Virus record (IMG/VR): IMGVR_UViG_3300042879_004465 | Location: 1 to 60,595 of that record | DNA length: 60,595 bases | Reading direction: 5' to 3' (one strand) | Source of the DNA: a virus | Shown: positions 40,390 to 52,628 of the stretch, in pieces | Position numbering within the stretch: position 1 is the first letter of the stretch | Layout of the letters: each line of letters begins with the position of its first letter | Notes under the pieces: model-generated | Told to the model about the DNA's origin: nothing | The model's database searches: none | What the model saw: only the letters and a program-made list of their open reading frames with translations | Translations under genes and position numbers: made by a program

Positions 40390-41067
40390 ATGATTATAGA
40401 TTTAAGAAAAATTCAAACGGTATGGATTAATCTTGACGGCGCAACCGGAAATGCTCAAATTATGGAGCACAGATTCGGCATTCATAATTTTGAAAAAACA
40501 TACCGAAAATCGGCAAGACAAATAGCTCCGCCTCACGGAACACCGGATACAATTAAGCATTACGTAGGCTGTGCTCAATCTCATATTGATATTTTGGAGG
40601 ACACAAATTATTCGTGTCCTCTTTTAATTCTTGAAGATGATGCCGAGTTTACTCAAGACTTTCATCCTATGATTGAAGTTCCCGACAATACGGATGCGGT
40701 GTATCTAGGAGTATCTTCCGGTAATCCTCATTATTTGTCCAAGAGAGTAAACAAATATTTTCTTAGAATTGGAAAAATTTTGGCTACTCATGCTATTTTG
40801 TATTTGAATCCCGATTACAGAAAAGCGGTTGCAGACATTGCAAAAGTGTTTGCTTACAGATTAAAAATTCCATTTGACAATGGCTGTGCATTGATTCAGG
40901 AGAGATTCAATGTAATTACTCCCAACACTCCATTCTTTGTACAGGCAAACCAAAGACAAAGCGCAAATCAATGGGAAGCGGTGACATCAAAGCCCTTGGT
41001 TGACAAGAATAGCGATTTTCCTGTCAGAGAAGAAAACGTACAGCTAGGAATACAGGTGCCAGTATGA
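40390..41067 (+). CDS. GT25-type glycosyltransferase
   Basis: A 225-residue protein. WINLDG near residue 13, VGCAQSHIDIL (58-68) and LLILEDDAEF (77-86) are the three landmarks of glycosyltransferase family 25 (LPS/collagen galactosyltransferase type: 'NLd', 'GC..SH', 'LEDD'). The EDD would bind metal and nucleotide sugar. It is the first gene of the island, directly behind the consensus promoter. It overlaps the next gene by four bases (ATGA). Confidence 0.72.
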   Translation: MIIDLRKIQTVWINLDGATGNAQIMEHRFGIHNFEKTYRKSARQIAPPHGTPDTIKHYVGCAQSHIDILEDTNYSCPLLILEDDAEFTQDFHPMIEVPDNTDAVYLGVSSGNPHYLSKRVNKYFLRIGKILATHAILYLNPDYRKAVADIAKVFAYRLKIPFDNGCALIQERFNVITPNTPFFVQANQRQSANQWEAVTSKPLVDKNSDFPVREENVQLGIQVPV

Positions 41068-41852
41068 TTGGAATGACAAATTTAGGAAATAATGGTAGAT
41101 TTGGAAATCAAATGTTTCAGTATGCCACGCTATACGCGCTTGGTAAAGAACTAAACTATGAAATTGGAATTCCGTATTTAAATAAAAGTAATGATGACTA
41201 TTTTAATTTTTGTCTACCAGAGTGTTTTTCATTATCGGCAAAAGATTTAAAGGGCCATTATTTTTCATCTTATTATCAAGAACCTCACTTTTCTTATGAT
41301 ACTAATATTAAAAATATTCCTGATAATACAAATTTAAAAGGATATTTTCAAAGTGAAAAATATTTTAAAAATTGCAAAAATGATTTAATGTTTAAAGAAT
41401 TTAATTTTAATAACGAAATTAAAATAAAAACAAAAAAATTATTAAACGGAAGAGACTCAGAATTAATATCAGTACACATTAGACTGGGAGACTATTTAAA
41501 ATTTCAAGATTCTCATCCAATATGTTCTACTGACTACTATAAAACAGCAATCCAAATGCTACCAAGCGATGCAAATATTATGCTTTTTAGCGACGATTAT
41601 AGTTTGGCATTACCATTTTTTAAAGATTTGGGAATAAAAGTTTTTGCATGTGGTACAAATAATAAATTTATAGATATGTGTTTAATGACACAATGTGAAT
41701 ATCATATAATTGCAAATAGTTCATTTAGCTGGTGGGGTTCTTGGTTAAGCAATAGCAAAAAAACAATAGCACCAAAGCAATGGTTCGGTACAGCACCACA
41801 TATGCCAAAAATTTGGAATGATGTTTATGCAGAAGATTGGATTGTAATATGA
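41064..41852 (+). CDS. GT11-type fucosyltransferase
   Basis: A 262-residue protein. GNNGRFGNQMFQYATLYALG at the N-terminus, VHIRLGDYL (the HxRxGD motif), the MLFSDDYSLA stretch and ANSSFSWWGSWLS near the C-terminus are the full signature of family 11, which contains alpha-1,2-fucosyltransferases. The donor would be GDP-fucose or a related GDP-sugar. No GDP-fucose synthesis genes are seen in this window. ATGA overlaps on both sides place it within the operon. Confidence 0.86.
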   Translation: MIGMTNLGNNGRFGNQMFQYATLYALGKELNYEIGIPYLNKSNDDYFNFCLPECFSLSAKDLKGHYFSSYYQEPHFSYDTNIKNIPDNTNLKGYFQSEKYFKNCKNDLMFKEFNFNNEIKIKTKKLLNGRDSELISVHIRLGDYLKFQDSHPICSTDYYKTAIQMLPSDANIMLFSDDYSLALPFFKDLGIKVFACGTNNKFIDMCLMTQCEYHIIANSSFSWWGSWLSNSKKTIAPKQWFGTAPHMPKIWNDVYAEDWIVI

Positions 41853-42787
41853 TTACAGTTAGATGTCCTGTAAGAATATCTTTGGTAGGCGGGTCCAGCG
41901 ATCTTGATGCTTATGTAGATAAGCATGGAAAGGGATCTGTTATTTCATTTACTCCAAAAATTTATACTTATGTTTCTATTTACAGGGATAAAATTGGACG
42001 TAACACCATTGATCAAAAGTATATTGTAAATTATTCTCAGCGAGAAGAAGTAAATACAATAAAAGAAATTAAAAATGAACTTGTAAGATTATTTTTTGAA
42101 AAAGAAAGAGTCTATCCTTGTTCAATCCATATGACTAGCGATGTATTTTCTCATGGCTCCGGGCTTGCTGTATCTTCTTCGTATTCTTGTTGTTTGGTAA
42201 AAGCTATTTCCGAGTTAAACAAGACATATCTTTCTGATATTGAGTGTACGGCGAAAGCGCACATTTTAGAAAAATTAATAAATCCGCTTTTGGGGCAACA
42301 AGATGTTTTCGGATGTGGAATTGGTGGATTTAAAAAAATAGAATTTACTCAAAATAGTCTTCCAAAGTATACATTTTTACCGACATCTTTTTTTAATTAT
42401 TATGTTCCATATCTGGTATTTACAGGTCTTACTAGAAACTCTACTAGTATTTTAAAAAATGTTAATGTTCCAGATACCGATACTTTTAATCCTTTGGTAT
42501 TTGAATCAGAACAAATGATATTAAACGGAAACTATGAAAAGTTTTTGCGATTGATAAAGGCTGGCTGGGAAGAAAAAAAAAGAACATCAAAGAGTGTTTT
42601 AGAAGAGCAATCATTGAAAGACTTGGATGAGTATTTGGATAAATATCCTGGTTGCGTAGCACACAAGCTATGTGGTGCTGGCAATGGAGGATTTTTTTTA
42701 GCTTTCTTTGAAGCACAAAATCTTCCAACACATCATAAATTTATTAAAGTAGAATTGAGCAATAGCGGTATTGAAAAAATATTATGA
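41849..42787 (+). CDS. GHMP sugar kinase, HddA-like (heptose 7-phosphate kinase)
   Basis: A 312-residue protein. ITVRCPVRISLVGGSSDLDAY and the GHMP motif HGSGLAVSSSYS, with CGAGNGGFF near the C-terminus, give a clear GHMP fold. The N-terminal form (R-x-P-x-R-I-x-x-x-G-G-x-x-D) is that of D-glycero-D-manno-heptose 7-phosphate kinase HddA. The substrate is inferred from that and from the next gene, a GmhA-like isomerase. I chose ATG at 41849 (ATGA overlap with the preceding stop) over a TTG at 41837. Confidence 0.78.
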   Translation: MITVRCPVRISLVGGSSDLDAYVDKHGKGSVISFTPKIYTYVSIYRDKIGRNTIDQKYIVNYSQREEVNTIKEIKNELVRLFFEKERVYPCSIHMTSDVFSHGSGLAVSSSYSCCLVKAISELNKTYLSDIECTAKAHILEKLINPLLGQQDVFGCGIGGFKKIEFTQNSLPKYTFLPTSFFNYYVPYLVFTGLTRNSTSILKNVNVPDTDTFNPLVFESEQMILNGNYEKFLRLIKAGWEEKKRTSKSVLEEQSLKDLDEYLDKYPGCVAHKLCGAGNGGFFLAFFEAQNLPTHHKFIKVELSNSGIEKIL

Positions 42788-43296
42788 ATAATTTTATAAA
42801 TAAAATAGACTCAGCTCTTAAAAATTTAAATTTTATTGATTTGGATTATTTAAAAAAAATAGTATTAGACACCAAATCGGAAATTATTATATTAGGAAAC
42901 GGTGGCAGCAACGCTATTTCGTCTCATATAGCCGAAGACTATACAAAAGCGTTAAAGAAAAAAGCAATTGCATTTACAGACGGTGCTAGGCTAACATGCT
43001 ATTCTAATGATTATGGGTATGAGAATGCATTTAAACAATATCTATCAGAATTTTCCACAAAAGATAGTCTTGTAATTTTAATAAGCTCTTCTGGAAATTC
43101 TCAAAATATTTTAAATTGTGCTGAATATTGCCTTGAAAACAAAATTAAATACATTATTTTTTCAGGTTTTAAACAAAATAATTGTTTAATAACAAAATAT
43201 GCAGACCAATCATTGTTAAATTTTTGGGTAAATTCCGACGATTACGGTGTTGTTGAATGTATTCACGAAATTATTTTACACTCGGTAATATCATGA
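42784..43296 (+). CDS. gmhA: SIS-domain phosphosugar isomerase, GmhA-like
   Basis: A 170-residue protein with GNGGSNAISSHIAED (sugar-phosphate loop), TDGARLTCYSNDYGYENAF, LISSSGNSQN and a C-terminal ECIHEIILH helix. This is the pattern of sedoheptulose 7-phosphate isomerase GmhA, which makes D-glycero-D-manno-heptose 7-phosphate, the first step of activated-heptose synthesis. Family length is about 190 residues. It overlaps the kinase by four bases and the next gene by four. Confidence 0.82.
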   Translation: MNNFINKIDSALKNLNFIDLDYLKKIVLDTKSEIIILGNGGSNAISSHIAEDYTKALKKKAIAFTDGARLTCYSNDYGYENAFKQYLSEFSTKDSLVILISSSGNSQNILNCAEYCLENKIKYIIFSGFKQNNCLITKYADQSLLNFWVNSDDYGVVECIHEIILHSVIS

Positions 43297-44009
43297 TTTA
43301 CTGCTTCGATTTGGATGAGACTCTTTGTACTAAAGCTATTGATGGTGATTACGCTACTGCAATGCCAATAGAAGAGGCTATAGAAAAAGTAAACATTCTT
43401 TGGATATTAGGAAATAAAATTTTAATATTTACTGGCCGAGGATCTAGCAGTGGTAAAGATTGGGTGGAATTGACAAAACAACAATTAAAAAATTGGGGTG
43501 TAAAATATGACGAATTAATAATGAATCGCAAGCCTACTTACGATGTAATAATAGATGACAAAGCAATAAATGCTGTTGACTGGCGAAATACTTTTTGCAA
43601 AACTCGCGGAGTTGTCGCTGGAGCATTCGATCTAATACATCCGGGATATTGTAAGTTATTTAAATTTTGCAAAGAACATTGTACTCATCTTACTGTTTTA
43701 TTACATGATGATCCATCTATAGAGAGAAAAAAAATGAGTCCAGTTCACAATCTCGGAGAAAGAACGGAAATTTTAAAGTCCATTAGATACGTTGATGACG
43801 TAATTGCATATACCGATGAGCAGGATCTTGCTATAAAATTAGAACTTGGATATTACAATGTCAGATTTTTGGGAGATGATTATAGAACAAAACCATATAC
43901 TGCGGATTATCTTCCTATTAAGATCATCTATACAGATAGATCGCACGGTTATTCTACGACGCAGTTAAAGAAAAAAATAGCTGATTCATACAAGGAGTTT
44001 ATGGGATGA
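43293..44009 (+). CDS. HAD phosphatase-nucleotidyltransferase fusion
   Basis: A 238-residue two-domain protein. Residues 1-100 are a HAD phosphatase (CFDLDETLC with D6 and D8, then ILIFTGRG and VIIDDKA). Residues 105-238 are a small nucleotidyltransferase (GVVAGAFDLIHPGYCKLF, LLHDDPS, ERTEILKSIRYVDDV, DRSHGYSTTQLKKKI). The HxGH motif reads HPGY, which I recall as a variant in related phage and bacterial proteins. With the preceding kinase and isomerase it could do the phosphatase and nucleotidyl-transfer steps of heptose activation. I chose ATG at 43293 by the ATGA overlap. Confidence 0.78.
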   Translation: MIYCFDLDETLCTKAIDGDYATAMPIEEAIEKVNILWILGNKILIFTGRGSSSGKDWVELTKQQLKNWGVKYDELIMNRKPTYDVIIDDKAINAVDWRNTFCKTRGVVAGAFDLIHPGYCKLFKFCKEHCTHLTVLLHDDPSIERKKMSPVHNLGERTEILKSIRYVDDVIAYTDEQDLAIKLELGYYNVRFLGDDYRTKPYTADYLPIKIIYTDRSHGYSTTQLKKKIADSYKEFMG

Positions 44010-44902
44010 AAATAATCGTAACTGGCGGATGTGGTTTTATAGGTAGTCATTTAGTAGATATGCTGGTGGAAAAAGAACATCAAGTTATTGTGATTGATGA
44101 CTGTTCTGCTGACAATGAAAAGTTTTATTACAACCAAAAAGCAGAATACTATAAAAACTCTATCTGCGAAATGGATTTTTTAGATAAAGTAACCAAAAAT
44201 TGTGATTTTATATTTCATCTGGCCGCGGAATCTCGGCTGCAAAATTCAATATTAAATCCGAGACGAGCGGTAGATGTTAATATTGGTGGAACTATTAATC
44301 TGCTTGAGTGTTGCAAAAAACATAAAATAAAAGGAATTATATTTTCGTCTACCTCATGTGTGTATGGATTAACAAATTGTCTACCGATTAAGGAAGATCT
44401 ACCAGAAGATTGTCTGAATCCATATGCGTCTACAAAATACGCAGCAGAGCTATTGATAAAAAACTATGTAAAACTGTTTAATATTAATGCTTGTATTTTT
44501 AGATATTTCAATGTTTTCGGTGAACGTTCTCCTGCACATGGACCTTATGCGTTGGTGACAGGCATTTTTTTGAAACAAAAAGCAAACAACCAACCACTGA
44601 CGGTTGTCGGGACAGGCTTGCAAGAAAGAGATTTTATTTACGTAAAAGATGTTGCACTAGCAAACATATTGGCCATGGAACATTGGGATATTGATAATAT
44701 AAAATCTGGAAATGTATTCAATATCGGTTCGGGTTCGGCTATAAAGATTATAGATCTTGCAAAATCCATATCGGATAACATTCAATTTATACCACCAAGA
44801 CAAGGTGAGGCTGAAAATAATCTATGTTCAATAGAAAAAATTCAAAAAGAAATTGATTGGAAACCAACTATAAATATTTTAAAGTGGCTTGAAAGTCGGT
44901 GA
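44006..44902 (+). CDS. NAD-dependent sugar-nucleotide epimerase/dehydratase (GalE-like)
   Basis: A 298-residue extended short-chain dehydrogenase. The NAD loop is VTGGCGFIGSHL (5-16), the Thr/Ser region is FSSTSCVYG, and the catalytic Y-x-x-x-K is NPYASTKYAAEL. RYFNVFGERSP and ERDFIYVKDVA are typical of UDP-glucose/GlcNAc 4-epimerase relatives. The substrate may be UDP-hexose or an activated heptose. The C-terminus is short (about 20 residues less than GalE). It overlaps the preceding gene by four bases. Confidence 0.82.
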   Translation: MKIIVTGGCGFIGSHLVDMLVEKEHQVIVIDDCSADNEKFYYNQKAEYYKNSICEMDFLDKVTKNCDFIFHLAAESRLQNSILNPRRAVDVNIGGTINLLECCKKHKIKGIIFSSTSCVYGLTNCLPIKEDLPEDCLNPYASTKYAAELLIKNYVKLFNINACIFRYFNVFGERSPAHGPYALVTGIFLKQKANNQPLTVVGTGLQERDFIYVKDVALANILAMEHWDIDNIKSGNVFNIGSGSAIKIIDLAKSISDNIQFIPPRQGEAENNLCSIEKIQKEIDWKPTINILKWLESR

Positions 44903-44908
44903 ATTATT

Positions 44909-45706
44909 ATGTGCAATTTAACATCAATTATTCCGGTTAAAATTGATTCAGAACAAAGAAAAAAAAATATAGATATAACCTTGAGGTATTTGCTTCAAAA
45001 TACCGATTCCAAAATAATAATCACTGAATGTGATGATCATCCCAAATTTGATGTAAAACACTATAATTCAGATCGTATAAAATATAAGTTTGAAAAAATT
45101 CAAAACAATTTTTTTCATCGAACTCGTTTAATAAATCAAATGTTAAATGAAGTTGATACTCCGGTTGTAGCCAATTATGATGCTGATGTTATTTTACCAA
45201 AAACTTCATACGAAATATCGGAAAAATTAATTTTAACAAAACAAGCTGATGTGATCTATCCGTATGGCTTCAACTGTGCTGGACAAAGAAGAATATTTCC
45301 AGATACAAAAGGTTTAAACAAATTTTATCACACACTAAATCTTGATGATTTGGAGCTTGACCAAAGAAGCCCTTGGCTCAGTAGATACGGACATGTTCAA
45401 TTTTTTAATACTGAGTGCTATATAAAAGGTTTTATGGAGAATGAAAACTACAAGCATTGGTGTCCTGAAGATGATGAACGTGCAATTCGATTTCAAAAAT
45501 TGGGATATAAAGTTATTTGGTTAGACAGCTTGGTATATCACCAAGAACATCCACCTTCTACGCAATCACAGCCATCTAATCTGCATGAAATTTATAAACT
45601 TCACAATTACTTAATACAAGGAAACAAAGAGTCAATAGAAACATACTACAGAAGCCAAGAATATTTAAAAAAGTATGATTCTTATAAAAAATTATGCACA
45701 GCTTAA
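44909..45706 (+). CDS. GT2-like glycosyltransferase
   Basis: A 265-residue GT-A protein. LTSIIPVKIDS at the start and VVANYDADVILP (the D-x-D metal site) are typical of family 2. CPEDDERAIRFQKLGYKVIW then LVYHQEHPPS near residue 200 resembles the second domain of chondroitin-polymerase or galactosyltransferase types. The acceptor is unknown. It overlaps the next glycosyltransferase gene by 13 bases. Confidence 0.7.
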   Translation: MCNLTSIIPVKIDSEQRKKNIDITLRYLLQNTDSKIIITECDDHPKFDVKHYNSDRIKYKFEKIQNNFFHRTRLINQMLNEVDTPVVANYDADVILPKTSYEISEKLILTKQADVIYPYGFNCAGQRRIFPDTKGLNKFYHTLNLDDLELDQRSPWLSRYGHVQFFNTECYIKGFMENENYKHWCPEDDERAIRFQKLGYKVIWLDSLVYHQEHPPSTQSQPSNLHEIYKLHNYLIQGNKESIETYYRSQEYLKKYDSYKKLCTA

Positions 45707-46494
45707 TATTAACAATACACAATAAAGAGTTTTTGCTTCCGCGTGTGCTAGAGGGCATTAAGAATAATACTACAGGATCTTACGAGCTAATTGTGGTATT
45801 GGATGGTTGTTCGGATAGGTCTAGTCAAATAGTATACGATTATCATAATAAGTTTGATAAAATAAGAATATTTGAAACACCGAATGTATTTGAGACAAAG
45901 TCAAATAACGTTGGCCTAAAAAATAGCTCAGGCAAATATTGCACAATTATTCAAGACGATATGATTATAAATGAGTATGCTTGGAATGAAAGAATGGTAA
46001 AACCATTTTCTTTTGGTGATGTATTTGCAGTCACTTCTCGTACAGCTCATAATTGGCAGTTTAATCCTCACACACTCCATTTAAATCTGCCTAATGAATT
46101 GGACCATTGCTGGTGCGATGTTTTGAATCACGTAGATCACGCACATAGAGGAAACACTCCAAGAGAAGAATTTGCAATAAGAAGCTCGGTGAATCGTGGT
46201 CCACTGATGATTCTTCATGAGGATTTACAAAAATTAAATTACCTTGATGAGGAATTTAGTCCGCAAGACATGGATGATCATGATTTTTGCTATAGAGCTA
46301 AAAAAATCTTAAATAAAGTGTGTGGTTGTTATTGGGTAGACATAATAACACAAGATTCTTGGGGAGGAACTAGAGTTTCTGGTTCACCGGCGGCATGGTT
46401 ATTAAAAGCTCATCACAAAAATACAAAAATATTTTATAATAGACATAAGGATTTAATTCATTCACCTCAAGCGATAGAAAGTAGAAAATTATGA
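45694..46494 (+). CDS. GT2 glycosyltransferase
   Basis: A 266-residue protein with SLILTIHNKEFLLPRVLEGI, ELIVVLDGCSDRS and an IIQDDMIIN metal site, the standard family 2 layout. NRGPLMILHEDLQKLNYLDE then MDDHDFCYRAKK is the acceptor-side motif. The start overlaps the preceding gene by 13 bases and no Shine-Dalgarno sequence is clear. Donor and acceptor are unknown. Confidence 0.78.
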   Translation: MHSLILTIHNKEFLLPRVLEGIKNNTTGSYELIVVLDGCSDRSSQIVYDYHNKFDKIRIFETPNVFETKSNNVGLKNSSGKYCTIIQDDMIINEYAWNERMVKPFSFGDVFAVTSRTAHNWQFNPHTLHLNLPNELDHCWCDVLNHVDHAHRGNTPREEFAIRSSVNRGPLMILHEDLQKLNYLDEEFSPQDMDDHDFCYRAKKILNKVCGCYWVDIITQDSWGGTRVSGSPAAWLLKAHHKNTKIFYNRHKDLIHSPQAIESRKL

Positions 46495-47099
46495 TAAATC
46501 AAGTCAAAGAAGCAATTTCAGACGAAAGATGGATGCAGACACAACCTGGAGAAAAAGCAGGACATATTATTGATCCAATAGAAATTTCATATAAAAAATA
46601 TAAAATTGCATATAGTTATTATTTTCAATATTTAAATATTGAAAATTTAGATTTAAAACAAAAAAGTGTAATAGAAATAGGCTGTGCTAGAATTTCTTCT
46701 TTATTTTTTTGTAATAACTATTCGACTTCATATGTAATAGAGCCCACATATTACCCAGAAGCCGATCAGTATTATGAAGGAAAAAATATTATCAAAATAC
46801 ACGATAAAGCAGAAAAATGTAATTTTCCAAAAACCGATGAAGTATGGTTGTTTAATGTTTTAGACCACGTTCAAGATCCAGATTTAATTATTAATAAAGC
46901 AAAACAAAATGCTAAAATTATTAGGTTTTTTGAACCTATTGATTGTGGTACTAATTTGGAGCATCCTTTTAGTTTTACTTTAAACGATTACAAAAAATAT
47001 TTTGGTGATTGTGTAAAACTTTATAGTTGTCCAAACAAAGAACACCCTTCCAAGATGTTTCATGGCTCCGATTGCGCTTACGGAGTTTATTATGTCTAA
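46491..47099 (+). CDS. Methyltransferase-like protein, copy 1
   Basis: A 202-residue protein that looks like a small class I SAM methyltransferase. There is an EIGCARISSLFF stretch where motif I (usually E-x-G-x-G-x-G) should be, YVIEPTYYPE as motif II, and DEVWLFNVLDHVQDPDLII with FFEPID as post-motifs. The missing glycines in motif I make SAM binding uncertain. It has a tandem paralogue directly downstream. It may methylate a sugar or be a non-catalytic remnant. Confidence 0.6.
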   Translation: MINQVKEAISDERWMQTQPGEKAGHIIDPIEISYKKYKIAYSYYFQYLNIENLDLKQKSVIEIGCARISSLFFCNNYSTSYVIEPTYYPEADQYYEGKNIIKIHDKAEKCNFPKTDEVWLFNVLDHVQDPDLIINKAKQNAKIIRFFEPIDCGTNLEHPFSFTLNDYKKYFGDCVKLYSCPNKEHPSKMFHGSDCAYGVYYV

Positions 47100-47679
47100 A
47101 AAATCAATTGACGATCAAAGATGGAACGAAGCTCAACAGGCCGAGAAGCCACACCATATAGCAGATTCTTTGAGCCATTCATATACACACTATGATAAAA
47201 TTTATGATATGTATTTTCAATATTTAAATATTGAAAAACAAAATCTTAAACAAAAATCTATTGCTGAAATAGGACCAGCACGAATACCTGGTTTGTTTTT
47301 TTGTAAAAATTATTCTAAATCATATGTGATTGAGCCAACTTATTATCCAGAAACAGATGAATATTATCGGGGAAAAAATATTGTTAGAATTTTTGAAAAA
47401 GCAGAAAATTGTAAATTTCCACAAACTGATGAAATTTGGCTACTAAATTTATTACAACACGTACAAGACCCAGATAAACTAATAGCACTATGCAAAAAAA
47501 ATGCAAAGACTATTAAATTTTTTGAACCAATAGATTATCCAATTAGCGTTGAACATCCTTTTACTTTTTCTTTTGAAGATTATGTTGAATATTTTGGAAA
47601 TAGTGTAAAGAGATATACTCCAGTGCCGGGATTCCATCAAGCAAATTGTGTGTATGGTGTATATGAAAACAATTGGTAA
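47092..47679 (+). CDS. Methyltransferase-like protein, copy 2
   Basis: A 195-residue paralogue of the preceding gene, overlapping it by eight bases. Matching blocks are DDQRWNEAQQAEKPHHIADS, YFQYLNIEKQNLKQKS, EIGPARIPGLFF, YVIEPTYYPE, LLNLLQHVQDPDKLI and FFEPIDYP. I chose ATG at 47092 over an upstream in-frame start at 47062 because the paralogue aligns from there. As in copy 1, motif I lacks the usual Gly pattern. Confidence 0.6.
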   Translation: MSKKSIDDQRWNEAQQAEKPHHIADSLSHSYTHYDKIYDMYFQYLNIEKQNLKQKSIAEIGPARIPGLFFCKNYSKSYVIEPTYYPETDEYYRGKNIVRIFEKAENCKFPQTDEIWLLNLLQHVQDPDKLIALCKKNAKTIKFFEPIDYPISVEHPFTFSFEDYVEYFGNSVKRYTPVPGFHQANCVYGVYENNW

Positions 47680-47717
47680 ACAAAAAATATTTACTTAAAT
47701 ATGGTTTGGGTGTATAA

Positions 47718-48419
47718 ATGAAAAATTTAAAAAATATTACTTTAGTGTCAATAAATTGTGTTAATCCACGCGAGTCTTATAAAGCATTAAAATATTGTTC
47801 GAAGTTTTTTAATTTTTATGACACTATTTTATTTACAGATGATAAAAGTAACTATGAAGGAGTAAATGTAAAAAAAATACCAAAATTAACATGGGAAACA
47901 TATAACGATTTTGTGTTGCATTTAGATTCTTATATTAAAAGCGAATATGTTTTAATAATTCAAGACGATGGTCACATAGTTAATCCTGATTTGTGGACGG
48001 ATGAATTTTTAAAATATGATTACATAGGAGCTCCTTGGCCAAGCGAAATTGACTGGATTGAAAAACAACTTCCCACACAACAAGAATACATGAAAAAATA
48101 TTTTCCAAAAAATAGAGTTGGAAATGGTGGATTTTCTTTACGAAGCAAAAAATTTTTACAATTTTCTAATCAGTATATTTCTTGTGAAGGCGTAGGAGAA
48201 GATAGTTTTTTATGCACACGGATCTATGAAGAGGCTATAGAGTATGGAATCAAATTTGCTCCATTTGATTTGGCTGTACATTTTTCATATGAAAATCCTT
48301 GTATAGAATTTGGTTTTACTTGGAATTCTAGAATATACTTTGATAAAACAAAGCATTTTGGCTGGCATGGAAAAAACTTCATAAATACACATGAATTACT
48401 TTCTTTAAAGGATACATAA
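47718..48419 (+). CDS. DUF5672-type glycosyltransferase-like protein
   Basis: A 233-residue protein. YVLIIQDDGHIVN (GT-A D-x-D), YDYIGAPWP near residue 100, and NRVGNGGFSLRSKKFL are the hallmark of DUF5672, a family linked to glycosyltransferases. VGEDSFLC follows as the acceptor-side acidic motif. A 38-base gap and a weak TTAAATA precede it, so it may begin a second transcript within the island. Confidence 0.72.
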   Translation: MKNLKNITLVSINCVNPRESYKALKYCSKFFNFYDTILFTDDKSNYEGVNVKKIPKLTWETYNDFVLHLDSYIKSEYVLIIQDDGHIVNPDLWTDEFLKYDYIGAPWPSEIDWIEKQLPTQQEYMKKYFPKNRVGNGGFSLRSKKFLQFSNQYISCEGVGEDSFLCTRIYEEAIEYGIKFAPFDLAVHFSYENPCIEFGFTWNSRIYFDKTKHFGWHGKNFINTHELLSLKDT

Positions 48420-48420
48420 T

Positions 48421-49410
48421 ATGGTGATTTTGATTACTGGGTGTGCTGGTTTACTTGGTGCCAATTATACTCGCCATTGCCTGAATAATGGACACACTGT
48501 AATAGGAATAGATGATTTTTCTGGCGGCTATAAGAGTTTTCTTCCGTCTCATTCATCATTCACCTTTTATGAATTGAATATCCTTGATCAAGATAAATTA
48601 ACAGACATTTATAAAAAGCATTTACCGGAATGTACATATCATTTTGCAGCTTATGCTGCAGAAGGTTTGTCTCCTTTTATTAGAAATTTTAATTATACCA
48701 ATAACATCATTTGCTCTGCAAATGTCATTAATTGTTGTGTAAATTTTAATAGTAAATTAATTTTCACTTCTAGTATGGCCGTCTACGGCAAACAACCAGC
48801 TCCATTCACTGAAGACTTATTGCCAGTTCCGATAGACCCATACGGAATTGCAAAGTATGCTGTTGAACTTGACATAAAGCAAGCGCATGAACAATTTGGT
48901 CTGAGATACAATATTATTAGACCACATAATGTTCTTGGTATGTATCAAAATATTTGGGATAGATATAGAAATGTAATAGGAATATTTATTAGAAAAGCTA
49001 TAAATGGAATTCCTTTATTGGTATATGGTGATGGAGAACAAACACGCGCATTTTCTGATATAAACTACTATATGGATCCATTTGATTCATTGATGTGCAA
49101 AAATGATGGTGAGTTGTTTAATATAGGAGCAGACAAATATTATTCCATTAATGAAGCTGCAGATATAGTTAAACAAGTTGCAAAAAAATATAACTATAAT
49201 GTCTCCATAAAATATGTGGAACCAAGGCATGAAGTCAAGCATGCCTATTGTGATCATACAAAGGCAAAGCAATATTTAAACTTTGAAGACAAAACAGATT
49301 TGCATGATTTGATAGAAAAAATGTTTGGATGGGCAATAAAAGAACCAAACAGAGATCTAAAAATTATGAAATATGAAATAGAAAAAAACATGTATAGTTA
49401 CTGGAAGTGA
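48421..49410 (+). CDS. NAD-dependent sugar-nucleotide epimerase
   Basis: A 329-residue extended short-chain dehydrogenase with LITGCAGLLGANY, FTSSMAVYGKQ, DPYGIAKYAVEL (catalytic Y-x-x-x-K), IIRPHNVLG and a GDGEQTRAFSDINYY stretch. It looks closest to UDP-glucose 4-epimerase or uronate-epimerase relatives. It sits one base after the DUF5672 gene. Together with the epimerases at 44006 and 51651 the island has three such enzymes. Confidence 0.8.
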   Translation: MVILITGCAGLLGANYTRHCLNNGHTVIGIDDFSGGYKSFLPSHSSFTFYELNILDQDKLTDIYKKHLPECTYHFAAYAAEGLSPFIRNFNYTNNIICSANVINCCVNFNSKLIFTSSMAVYGKQPAPFTEDLLPVPIDPYGIAKYAVELDIKQAHEQFGLRYNIIRPHNVLGMYQNIWDRYRNVIGIFIRKAINGIPLLVYGDGEQTRAFSDINYYMDPFDSLMCKNDGELFNIGADKYYSINEAADIVKQVAKKYNYNVSIKYVEPRHEVKHAYCDHTKAKQYLNFEDKTDLHDLIEKMFGWAIKEPNRDLKIMKYEIEKNMYSYWK

Positions 49411-49431
49411 TAAATAAAATATTGGTTTATT

Positions 49432-50127
49432 ATGCAAATTGAAATTTTTATCCGTCATTGTTTTTATTCCCCAAACTCAGCAATACCTAATCGGCATCGC
49501 CCGGATTGGTTTGACAAAGAAAAAATATTTAAAAATTTTAAAAAAGAAGCCAACAAACCAAATTGCAATTATACAATTATATACGACAATCACTTTGGCC
49601 CCCGCAATCAAACTTTTCTGAAAGACGAGACAAATGTGGTTGATATAAACTGTGGTACTGAGGCAAGTAGTTTTATTTTTATGTTGAATTATGTTAGAGA
49701 AAAGAATTATAATCCAGAAACTATAATATATTTTGTAGAGGACGATTATCTCCATAGACCAGATTGGGATGTAGCAATGCGAGAAGCATTTGGGTTGCCA
49801 ATTCATTACGTATCTTTATATGACCATTTGGACAAGTATCTATATTATCCTGATTTATTTTCTAAAATTTATTGTACTTCCAGATGTCATTGGAGAACAG
49901 TACCATCTACATGCAATACATATGCGGTTAAATTCAAACAATTGATGGAAGATTATCATACAAACGAAGTGTATAGTGTATATTCTAATAATGGTGTTTC
50001 ACGTGATCATGAAAAATTTGTAGACTTAGGACGACAAGGAAAAGTATTGGTAACTCCGATGCCTGGTTATGCGACTCACTGCGATCACTTACAATCGCCC
50101 ACGCTTGACTGGAAACAGTACATATGA
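49432..50127 (+). CDS. Putative GT-A glycosyltransferase
   Basis: A 231-residue protein. IIYFVEDDYLHRPDW near residue 100 carries an EDD metal site. YVSLYDHLDKY, RCHWRTVPSTCNTYAV, and GYATHCDHL follow. I recall this block set in uncharacterised viral and bacterial glycosyltransferase-like proteins. The donor and product are unknown. It overlaps the next gene by four bases. Confidence 0.55.
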   Translation: MQIEIFIRHCFYSPNSAIPNRHRPDWFDKEKIFKNFKKEANKPNCNYTIIYDNHFGPRNQTFLKDETNVVDINCGTEASSFIFMLNYVREKNYNPETIIYFVEDDYLHRPDWDVAMREAFGLPIHYVSLYDHLDKYLYYPDLFSKIYCTSRCHWRTVPSTCNTYAVKFKQLMEDYHTNEVYSVYSNNGVSRDHEKFVDLGRQGKVLVTPMPGYATHCDHLQSPTLDWKQYI

Positions 50128-50951
50128 AAGATTGTGTTGTTTATTTGGCAGGCAATAGCGAAGATAATATCAAAGATTTTTATAAAAGTTTATCGTTGTT
50201 GTACGAAAATTATCTTAAAACATTTCAATGTGATGTTGTTGTATTTCACGAAAAAGAATTTATTTCAAAGTTACCCGATTTAATAAAGACGTTTTCAAAT
50301 ATCTCATTTAAATTCTTTGAAATACAATTTAACACTCCAAAGTATCCACCAAATATAATGGAAAATATTCCTGAATATTTTCCGCACCCGACTCATGGCA
50401 GCGGACCCATTGCATGGGGGCATCCCGGGTTTAGTCTAGGATATAGACATATGTGCAATTTTTTTAGTGGAGAGCTATATCAGCAAGTTGGATTGAATGA
50501 CTACGATTATTATATGAGGCTAGACACCGACTCTTATATTTTAAAAAAAGTTACATATAATGTTTTTGATATGATGCGTCATCATGATGCCATATATGGT
50601 TTTATAGGAGCCGCAGTGCAAATTGACAATTCAAAAGTTGTTGAAGGTCTGTGGGAATATTGTAAAAAATTTTCAGATTTAAGTGAGCATGTAAAAGATA
50701 AATTAAAAATTTTAAACATACCTTCTGGAAAAATGTATTACAATAATTTTGAAATAGGAAAAATATCTTGGTTTAAAGGATCTTCTTATAGAGCTTTTTA
50801 CGAGTATATAAAAGAGTCAGGAGGAATTTATACTAAAAGATGGGGCGATGCTCCTATTAGATATTTGGGCATTAATTTATTATTGGATGATTGTAAATTA
50901 ATAGATATAAATAATATCGCATACCAACATGGAGCCATTTATAATTTATGA
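50124..50951 (+). CDS. GT15-type alpha-1,2-mannosyltransferase
   Basis: A 275-residue protein matching yeast Kre2/Mnt1 family 15. Landmarks are GFSLGYRHMCNFFSGELY near residue 103, YYMRLDTDSYI near 131, YNNFEIGKISWFKGSSYRAF near 206 and a GGIYTKRWGDAPIRYLGINL block near 232. Family 15 enzymes transfer mannose from GDP-mannose in fungal Golgi and lack signal anchors only in rare bacterial or viral forms. No signal anchor is seen here. A fungal-type enzyme in a phage is unusual. Recognition is strong; specificity is inferred from the family. Confidence 0.82.
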   Translation: MKDCVVYLAGNSEDNIKDFYKSLSLLYENYLKTFQCDVVVFHEKEFISKLPDLIKTFSNISFKFFEIQFNTPKYPPNIMENIPEYFPHPTHGSGPIAWGHPGFSLGYRHMCNFFSGELYQQVGLNDYDYYMRLDTDSYILKKVTYNVFDMMRHHDAIYGFIGAAVQIDNSKVVEGLWEYCKKFSDLSEHVKDKLKILNIPSGKMYYNNFEIGKISWFKGSSYRAFYEYIKESGGIYTKRWGDAPIRYLGINLLLDDCKLIDINNIAYQHGAIYNL

Positions 50952-51637
50952 ATAATTTTTGTTTACTTATGTATTGCAATGAAAAATATAAATTATTTCA
51001 AGAAAAAACTTCAAGATCATTAATAGAGAGTGGTATTATAAATAAAAGTTTTATTAAAGATGAAAATGATTTAAAACAAACAATTTTCTACGAAGAACAT
51101 AAAAAAATATTATCTGTTCCAAGAGGAGCAGGATATTGCTTGTGGAAACCATATTATATTTTGGAAACCTTATTATTATTACAAGATAATGAAATATTAT
51201 TTTATTTGGATAGTGGGGACTGTATAATAAACATTTTAGAATTTAAAGAAAAAATTGATAAATTAATTTTTGACAAAGACTATTTGTTTTTTGATGGAGG
51301 ATTTTTACAAAAAGAATATACTAGATATGATTGTTTTTATATGATGAATTGTTTAAATTCAAATTACACAGATAGAATTCAGTTAGAAGCTGGTGTTTTA
51401 TTTTTAAAAAATACACCATTTATTAAAAATTTTGTAAAAGAATGGTTGTATTATTGTTCCAATTATCAAATAATAAGTGATGAACAAAATATATACGGAA
51501 ACAATTTTCCAGAATTTAAAGATCATAGACATGATCAGAGTATTCTGACTAATCTTGTAGAAAAATATAAATTATCTAGTATTCCAATGGAAAATTCTGT
51601 TAGACAAGACAATATAAAATGTAATTATTATAAGTAA
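50948..51637 (+). CDS. Unclassified glycosyltransferase-like protein
   Basis: A 229-residue protein. VPRGAGYCLWKPYYILETL near residue 56, LFYLDSGDCI (D-x-G metal-site-like) and HRHDQSILTNLV near the C-terminus match a glycosyltransferase-like family that I recall from giant viruses, phages and bacterial glycan clusters ('RG.GYW.WKPY...Y.D.G....HR.DQS'). It overlaps the GT15 gene by four bases. Catalytic role and donor are unknown. Confidence 0.55.
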   Translation: MNNFCLLMYCNEKYKLFQEKTSRSLIESGIINKSFIKDENDLKQTIFYEEHKKILSVPRGAGYCLWKPYYILETLLLLQDNEILFYLDSGDCIINILEFKEKIDKLIFDKDYLFFDGGFLQKEYTRYDCFYMMNCLNSNYTDRIQLEAGVLFLKNTPFIKNFVKEWLYYCSNYQIISDEQNIYGNNFPEFKDHRHDQSILTNLVEKYKLSSIPMENSVRQDNIKCNYYK

Positions 51638-51650
51638 AAAAGGAAAATTT

Positions 51651-52628
51651 ATGAAAACAGCGTTAGTTTTAGGAGCAGGCGGATTTATTGGTGGGCATCT
51701 TGTAACTCGCTTGAAAAATAGAGGATATTGGGTTCGCGGCGTAGACATTAAAGAACACGAATATAAAAAATCAGAGGCAGACGAATTTTTATTATTGGAT
51801 TTGCGAGACTCTATTAATGTTGAAGCAGCACTAAAATTGAATAATGAAACTTTTGATGAAATATATCAACTAGCAGCCGATATGGGTGGCGCCGGTTATA
51901 TTTTTACAGGTGAACATGATGCAGACGTTATGCACAATTCAGCTATTATTAATTTAAATGTTGCTAACAGTGCAGTACAATACAAAAAAATGCCAAAGAT
52001 TTTTTATTCTTCATCGGCATGCATGTATCCTGAATATAATCAATTAGATCCCAATAACCCAAAGTGTAGTGAAGAATCGGCTTATCCGGCTGCACCTGAC
52101 AGCGAATATGGATGGGAAAAGCTGTTCAGTGAACGTGTGTATTTGGCGTATAATAGAAATTATAAGTTACCCGTTCGCATTGGTCGTTTTCACAATATTT
52201 TTGGTCCTTATGGATCTTGGAATAACGGAAAAGAAAAAGCCCCGGCAGCAGTTTGTCGAAAAGTTGCGTCAGCAGAAGAAGGTGGATCGATTGAAATTTG
52301 GGGAGACGGAAAACAAACAAGATCATTTTTATATATTGATGAGTGTTTAGACACTATTGAAAAGTTTATGAAATCAGACTTTTTGGGACCAATGAACATT
52401 GGCTCTGAAGAAATGGTTTCAATCAATGAACTTGCAAACCGAGTGATGTCAATTGCAAATAAAAATGTTACAATTCAAAATAAACCCGGACCAGAGGGAG
52501 TTCGCGGAAGAAATTCTGATAATACTCTAATGCGAGAAAAATTAAATTGGGCTCCAAGCGCTCCGTTGAATGAAGGGTTAAAAAAGACCTATGAGTGGAT
52601 CAATAGTATGGTAAATCCATCTACTTGA
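51651..52628 (+). CDS. GDP-mannose 3,5-epimerase-like SDR
   Basis: A 325-residue protein. VLGAGGFIGGHL (NAD loop), LAADMGGAGYIF, YSSSACMYPE, ESAYPAAPDSEYGWEKLF (Y-x-x-x-K), RIGRFHNIFGPYGSW and EKAPAAVCRK are the near-complete signature of plant-type GDP-mannose 3,5-epimerase, which makes GDP-L-galactose or GDP-L-gulose from GDP-mannose. With heptose-activating genes upstream it might instead act on GDP-heptose. AAAAGGAAA precedes ATG. It is the last gene of the island. Confidence 0.85.
   Translation: MKTALVLGAGGFIGGHLVTRLKNRGYWVRGVDIKEHEYKKSEADEFLLLDLRDSINVEAALKLNNETFDEIYQLAADMGGAGYIFTGEHDADVMHNSAIINLNVANSAVQYKKMPKIFYSSSACMYPEYNQLDPNNPKCSEESAYPAAPDSEYGWEKLFSERVYLAYNRNYKLPVRIGRFHNIFGPYGSWNNGKEKAPAAVCRKVASAEEGGSIEIWGDGKQTRSFLYIDECLDTIEKFMKSDFLGPMNIGSEEMVSINELANRVMSIANKNVTIQNKPGPEGVRGRNSDNTLMREKLNWAPSAPLNEGLKKTYEWINSMVNPST

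Follow-up and report, generated by a model that had tools for sequence, protein, structure and literature searches.

Heptose genes in phages have precedents. Heptose-related LPS genes were reported in 2020 for the cyanophage SynMITS9220M01 (PMC7378029) and viral heptose enzymes in 2024 (Tang et al. 2024), and PMC11461863 covers viruses more generally and describes the phosphatase as absent in viruses; phage heptose genes, which an earlier note on the present DNA had considered notable, had thus been reported before. Three layouts of the nucleotidyltransferase have been published (PMC11573728): alone, with a kinase, or with an isomerase plus a kinase.

Several described systems overlap with the locus analysed here. 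The C. jejuni heptose system has the isomerase and kinase families and the reaction logic in common with it, whereas its phosphatase and nucleotidyltransferase come from other families, and in our locus these two are fused. Systems for ADP-beta-heptose and viral systems of the HldE type likewise have a phage-encoded nucleotidyltransferase of the cytidylyltransferase superfamily. Phage P-SSM2 shares the HAD family, but encodes an HldE-type PfkB kinase (148 bits) and an HldE-type transferase (106 bits, HPGH), where our locus has a GHMP kinase and HPGY. Phages RB69 and HY126 carry a homologous HAD bisphosphatase (AfhF) and apparently the same four-step logic, but their isomerase is of the KdsD/GutQ type, their kinase is APH-like and joined in one protein with a PF00483 transferase, and the set serves DNA arabinosylation; the DNA of RB69 is arabinosylated (PMC6024577, PMC13390438). 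To judge from these sequences, the four-step logic seems to exist among phages in no fewer than three versions with a common HAD family, those of RB69/HY126, of P-SSM2 and of the type found here.

A T4-like phage and its glycan cassette

The window (the whole stretch of DNA analysed, the 60,595-base virus record IMGVR_UViG_3300042879_004465) belongs to a T4-like virus whose hosts are aquatic bacteria. Its terminase shares about 51% identity with those of Pelagibacter phage HTVC008M and cyanophages, and it encodes a portal, a major head protein, a clamp, a clamp loader and a UvsW-like helicase. A glycan cassette occupies positions 40390–52628 approximately, with the helicase gene on one side and a block of genes for replication on the other, and includes a run of five genes, with the fourth encoding two domains:

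41064..41852, + strand, GT11-like glycosyltransferase, overlapping the kinase start (PF01531, E 1e-23)
41849..42787, + strand, HddA/WcbL-like sugar kinase of the GHMP family, 312 aa, predicted to act as an aldose 7-phosphate 1-kinase (GHMP_kinases_N; HddA model 73.6 bits)
42784..43296, + strand, SIS-domain isomerase, GmhA-like with an altered zinc site, 170 aa (SIS_2; gmhA model 70.1 bits; Foldseek GmhA)
43293..43592, + strand, N-terminal half of the fusion, a HAD phosphatase domain of EcbF/PHROG 1238 type (PHROG 1238; AfhF 9iqw, 33% identity)
43593..44009, + strand, C-terminal half of the fusion, a cytidylyltransferase-like nucleotidyltransferase domain with an HPGY motif (PF01467, CTP_transf_like; TagD 1coz best structure)
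44006..44902, + strand, following module gene, for an SDR nucleotide-sugar epimerase/dehydratase (Epimerase PF01370, E 1.7e-55)

The three ORFs encoding kinase, isomerase and fusion are complete and lie where the earlier note had placed them. They are real genes, chance being excluded because the module recurs in about 30 other contigs. Translational coupling, which the note had proposed for these three, is plausible for all five genes, from the GT11-like gene through the SDR epimerase, because each start codon overlaps the preceding stop as ATGA at the four junctions (41849, 42784, 43293, and 44006).

Full-length fusions were found in 29 IMG/VR contigs (L001–L028 and L065), some of them near-duplicates, and the order kinase-isomerase-fusion was present in 26 of these; of the remaining three, L022 is truncated, and L026 and L027 have a kinase that is divergent. 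Cyanophage SynMITS9220M01 (MT408532) likewise shares the order kinase, isomerase, fusion, and epimerase, but its fusion is annotated as hypothetical and the window proteins are only about 45–48% identical to their counterparts. Across the contigs compared, the SDR epimerase adjoins or sits close to the fusion gene in most cases, and the GT11-like gene is frequent near the module with a variable placement. Elsewhere in the window, two tandem paralogues (46491–47099 and 47062–47679) share 57% identity, the former of the two weakly matching a methyltransferase, and a phage-borne GT15-type glycosyltransferase (Glycolipid 2-alpha-mannosyltransferase family, E 3e-35) is encoded at 50124–50951.

Kinase and isomerase

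Assignment of the kinase to the HddA/WcbL family, as originally proposed, was borne out by several analyses. The HddA model (73.6 bits) covers almost the entire protein without reaching its curated equivalog cut-off of 600, and a profile built from 29 relatives matched HddA/WcbL in the PDB at E 1e-41 or lower, compared with about 1e-26 for L-fucokinase. In WcbL, mutation of any one of R13, D22, Q162, and D163 abolishes activity (PMC4691232); their equivalents in the window kinase (R9, D18, Q151, and D152) are invariant in 29 sequences. HddA-type kinases yield an alpha 1,7-bisphosphate (PMC10680097), and the presence of a GHMP kinase in the module predicts an alpha anomer as product. This expectation leaves without support the connection drawn in the earlier note with innate immune signalling and the LPS core, as the ADP-heptose precursor of LPS is a beta anomer and the known ALPK1 agonists are beta-heptoses (PMC11573728); nothing was found that would link the phage to a mammalian host.

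For the isomerase, the proposed GmhA type held for the fold and the best family match, whereas the metal site differed. Its structure was predicted with high confidence (pLDDT 96), with GmhA as the top fold match in Foldseek and as the best match among SIS proteins, while the score with the gmhA model (70.1 bits) is far under the curated equivalog cut-off. The zinc ligands of GmhA (H64, E68, Q175, and H183 in B. pseudomallei numbering) are reported to be completely conserved among orthologues, and a Q175E mutant has been described as inactive (PMC5705639). The corresponding positions in the module isomerases are H48, D52, E158, and H166, invariant in 31 sequences, so that two of the four ligands are replaced in 31 out of 31 (E to D52, Q to E158).

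These invariant changes, together with the diverged scores of every enzyme, would fit a four-step logic acting on another sugar, be it one of a different length (hexose, octose) or an uncommon epimer of heptose, in which case the zinc site would reflect a different ketose phosphate and the product would be another NDP-aldose. We consider this unlikely, given that the kinase keeps the equivalents of WcbL Q162 and D163 and that isomerase and kinase each match heptose enzymes best, independently.

The phosphatase-nucleotidyltransferase fusion and its partners

The fusion ORF ends at 44009, and its likely start is the ATG at 43293 (238 aa) rather than that at 43257, because most homologues begin there. 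The presence of a HAD phosphatase and a nucleotidyltransferase in a single ORF, recognised in the earlier note, stood (a PHROG 1238/EcbF-type HAD followed by PF01467), while the particular families it had suggested for both domains did not. The structural model of the two-domain protein (pLDDT 86.5) is good within domains, with an uncertain domain arrangement (pTM 0.64). Such a fusion lies outside the three layouts of heptose nucleotidyltransferases described in PMC11573728, and literature searches on AfhF, EcbF/BcbF and CDP-heptose in phage found no paper on such enzymes.

In the HAD domain, the motif residues D6, D8, T47, K80, D88, and D89 are invariant among module fusions. It is not of the suggested GmhB type: no GmhB model was listed at E up to 1, the best matches being EcbF-BcbF, PHROG 1238 and AfhF. 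Its closest solved relative is AfhF of phage HY126 (PDB 9iqw, 33% identity), named D-arabinose 1,5-diphosphate phosphatase, which would be the corresponding step for a different sugar and from which we infer an aldose bisphosphate phosphatase. In PHROGs and in many phage annotations, members of this HAD family (PHROG 1238; L069:7086-7430 of P-SSM2, RB69p051, and others) are labelled as 'phosphoheptose isomerase'. The family, which matches 383 phage records, has HAD motifs and no SIS domain, and the SIS profile of the module gave no match in P-SSM2.

The similarity to AfhF, and the high frequency of the HAD family among RB69-like phages, would also be expected of a pentose route comparable to that of DNA-arabinosylating phages, leading from ribulose 5-phosphate through arabinose 5-phosphate, the 1,5-bisphosphate and arabinose 1-phosphate to NDP-arabinose. 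We regard such a route as quite improbable, as the KdsD/GutQ-type isomerase and the APH-like kinase/PF00483 transferase of arabinose phages are unrelated to the window enzymes, and the complete SynMITS9220M01 genome lacks a TS-family base hydroxylase. The families of isomerase and kinase would separate heptose-type from pentose-type clusters, because those of HY126 and RB69 have a KdsD/GutQ isomerase and no GHMP kinase was found in them. DNA arabinosylation itself, raised by the AfhF match, was downgraded on account of the different isomerase and kinase families and of the absence of TS-family hydroxylases from the complete cyanophage genome; its hallmarks, namely an isomerase of the KdsD type, an APH-like kinase joined with a PF00483 transferase and a TS homologue for base hydroxylation, were not found in the window, which is itself a fragment.

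The nucleotidyltransferase domain belongs to neither of the types suggested in the earlier note, being cytidylyltransferase-like (PF01467) and not of the PF00483 type as in HddC, and TagD-like rather than HldE-like. The glycerol-3-phosphate cytidylyltransferase TagD is the closest solved structure, and its residues H14, K46, and R113 align with H116, K147, and R216 of the fusion, which also keeps the STT. In contrast to the HxGH of TagD, whose second His is essential (PMC8262930), every module nucleotidyltransferase has HPGY, and the window enzyme stands in a sugar-pathway context. The motif around STT reads RSHGYSTT in the window, with R216 and H218 invariant, and begins with Arg like the RTEGISTT of TagD; the (F/L)xxGxSTT motif ascribed to heptose nucleotidyltransferases in PMC11461863 is absent from the fusion. 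All module enzymes score far under the curated equivalog cut-offs and are, because of this, distant relatives of the characterised families.

The same domain was found joined to other partners. In the 595-kb jumbo phage LR756511 (L068:5992-7368), it is fused to a GHMP kinase (458 aa), a layout resembling HldE with an unrelated kinase family, and in a 7.3-kb contig filed as Pacearchaeota (L089:5910-6842) it is fused to a SIS isomerase (310 aa), with a GHMP kinase close by. Both were placed in the tree among the phage HAD-nucleotidyltransferase proteins, with strong support for the latter and moderate support for the former. As the nucleotidyltransferase is thus fused to each of three partners (HAD, kinase, and isomerase), there is strong sequence evidence that the four activities would act in series in one pathway from a ketose phosphate to an NDP-aldose, and the single pathway envisaged in the earlier note is supported by these fusions and by the conserved gene order.

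Standalone HPGY nucleotidyltransferases of 132–140 aa are encoded at L076:6977-7399, L088:6980-7402, L091:6989-7399, and about 25 similar loci of marine Flavobacteria and Gammaproteobacteria; that of L088, from a flavobacterium, lies between trehalose-phosphate synthase/phosphatase and GH15, and that of L091, from Gammaproteobacteria, follows a LapB-like gene. In the genomes carrying them, including Ca. Arcticimaribacter and many that are incomplete, gmhA and a full-length HddA-like kinase were mostly not found, and because of this the usual substrate of the standalone family is probably other than heptose 1-phosphate. Together with the proximity to TagD, these relatives could indicate that the product of the phage domain is a CDP-polyol, for example CDP-glycerol, and that the domain has no more than a loose link with the other enzymes. 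Its fusion with HAD, kinase or isomerase, depending on the contig, and the SDR sugar epimerase that comes next, make this reading very improbable.

The predicted pathway and its sugar

What the sequences show is the set of genes with its order, the fused domains and the residues that are conserved; the series of reactions that we derive from them is a prediction, and so are the sugar, its anomer and the nucleotide. The starting compound would be a ketose phosphate, with sedoheptulose 7-phosphate as the likeliest one, which the GmhA-like isomerase would convert to the aldose 7-phosphate. The HddA-like GHMP kinase would then phosphorylate C1 in the alpha configuration, the HAD domain of the fusion would remove the C7 phosphate, and the nucleotidyltransferase domain would join the resulting sugar 1-phosphate to a nucleotide (from CTP or ATP, most likely), yielding NDP-heptose and pyrophosphate. 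The SDR enzyme next in line would probably modify the NDP-heptose, to be used by the glycosyltransferases of the cassette. A glycan would be a likelier acceptor than DNA, which we consider unlikely because no thymidylate-synthase-family protein was found in the complete SynMITS9220M01 genome nor in contigs of 171 and 178 kb, whereas in RB69 and HY126, which use a protein of this family for base hydroxylation, a second and short TS homologue lies next to the cluster.

The four-step NDP-aldose logic is very probably correct, and heptose is the somewhat favoured sugar, because the kinase keeps the active-site residues of WcbL/HddA and the isomerase resembles GmhA. Our confidence in heptose is limited by the changed zinc site and because gmhA and full HddA homologues are rare in the genomes that carry the standalone HPGY relatives. 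The inactivity of GmhA Q175E, the HPGY in place of HxGH, the pentose substrate of the nearest named HAD relative and the scores below equivalog cut-offs also count against it. As a tentative proposal, in which we place less than even confidence, the module may represent a hybrid, mainly phage route, in which a zinc-altered SIS isomerase would work with a GHMP kinase of alpha specificity and with a bifunctional HPGY phosphatase-nucleotidyltransferase, whose nucleotidyltransferase domain swaps among three partners, to give an undescribed nucleotide-heptose such as CDP- or ADP-alpha-heptose.

In conclusion, as far as can be judged with the tools used, five things are new: the joining of phosphatase and nucleotidyltransferase in one protein, the HPGY that marks it, the exchange of fusion partners, the hybrid route with a GHMP kinase and a TagD-like enzyme, and a candidate for the viral phosphatase. 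The label of 'phosphoheptose isomerase' on a HAD family can lead to overcounting of gmhA among phage auxiliary genes. The fusion would add a fourth architecture to those of heptose nucleotidyltransferases and is predicted to be a natural bifunctional enzyme, open to assay. Its HAD domain is a candidate for the phosphatase that viral heptose pathways are reported to lack (PMC11461863), and a single phage HAD family would serve different activated-sugar pathways.
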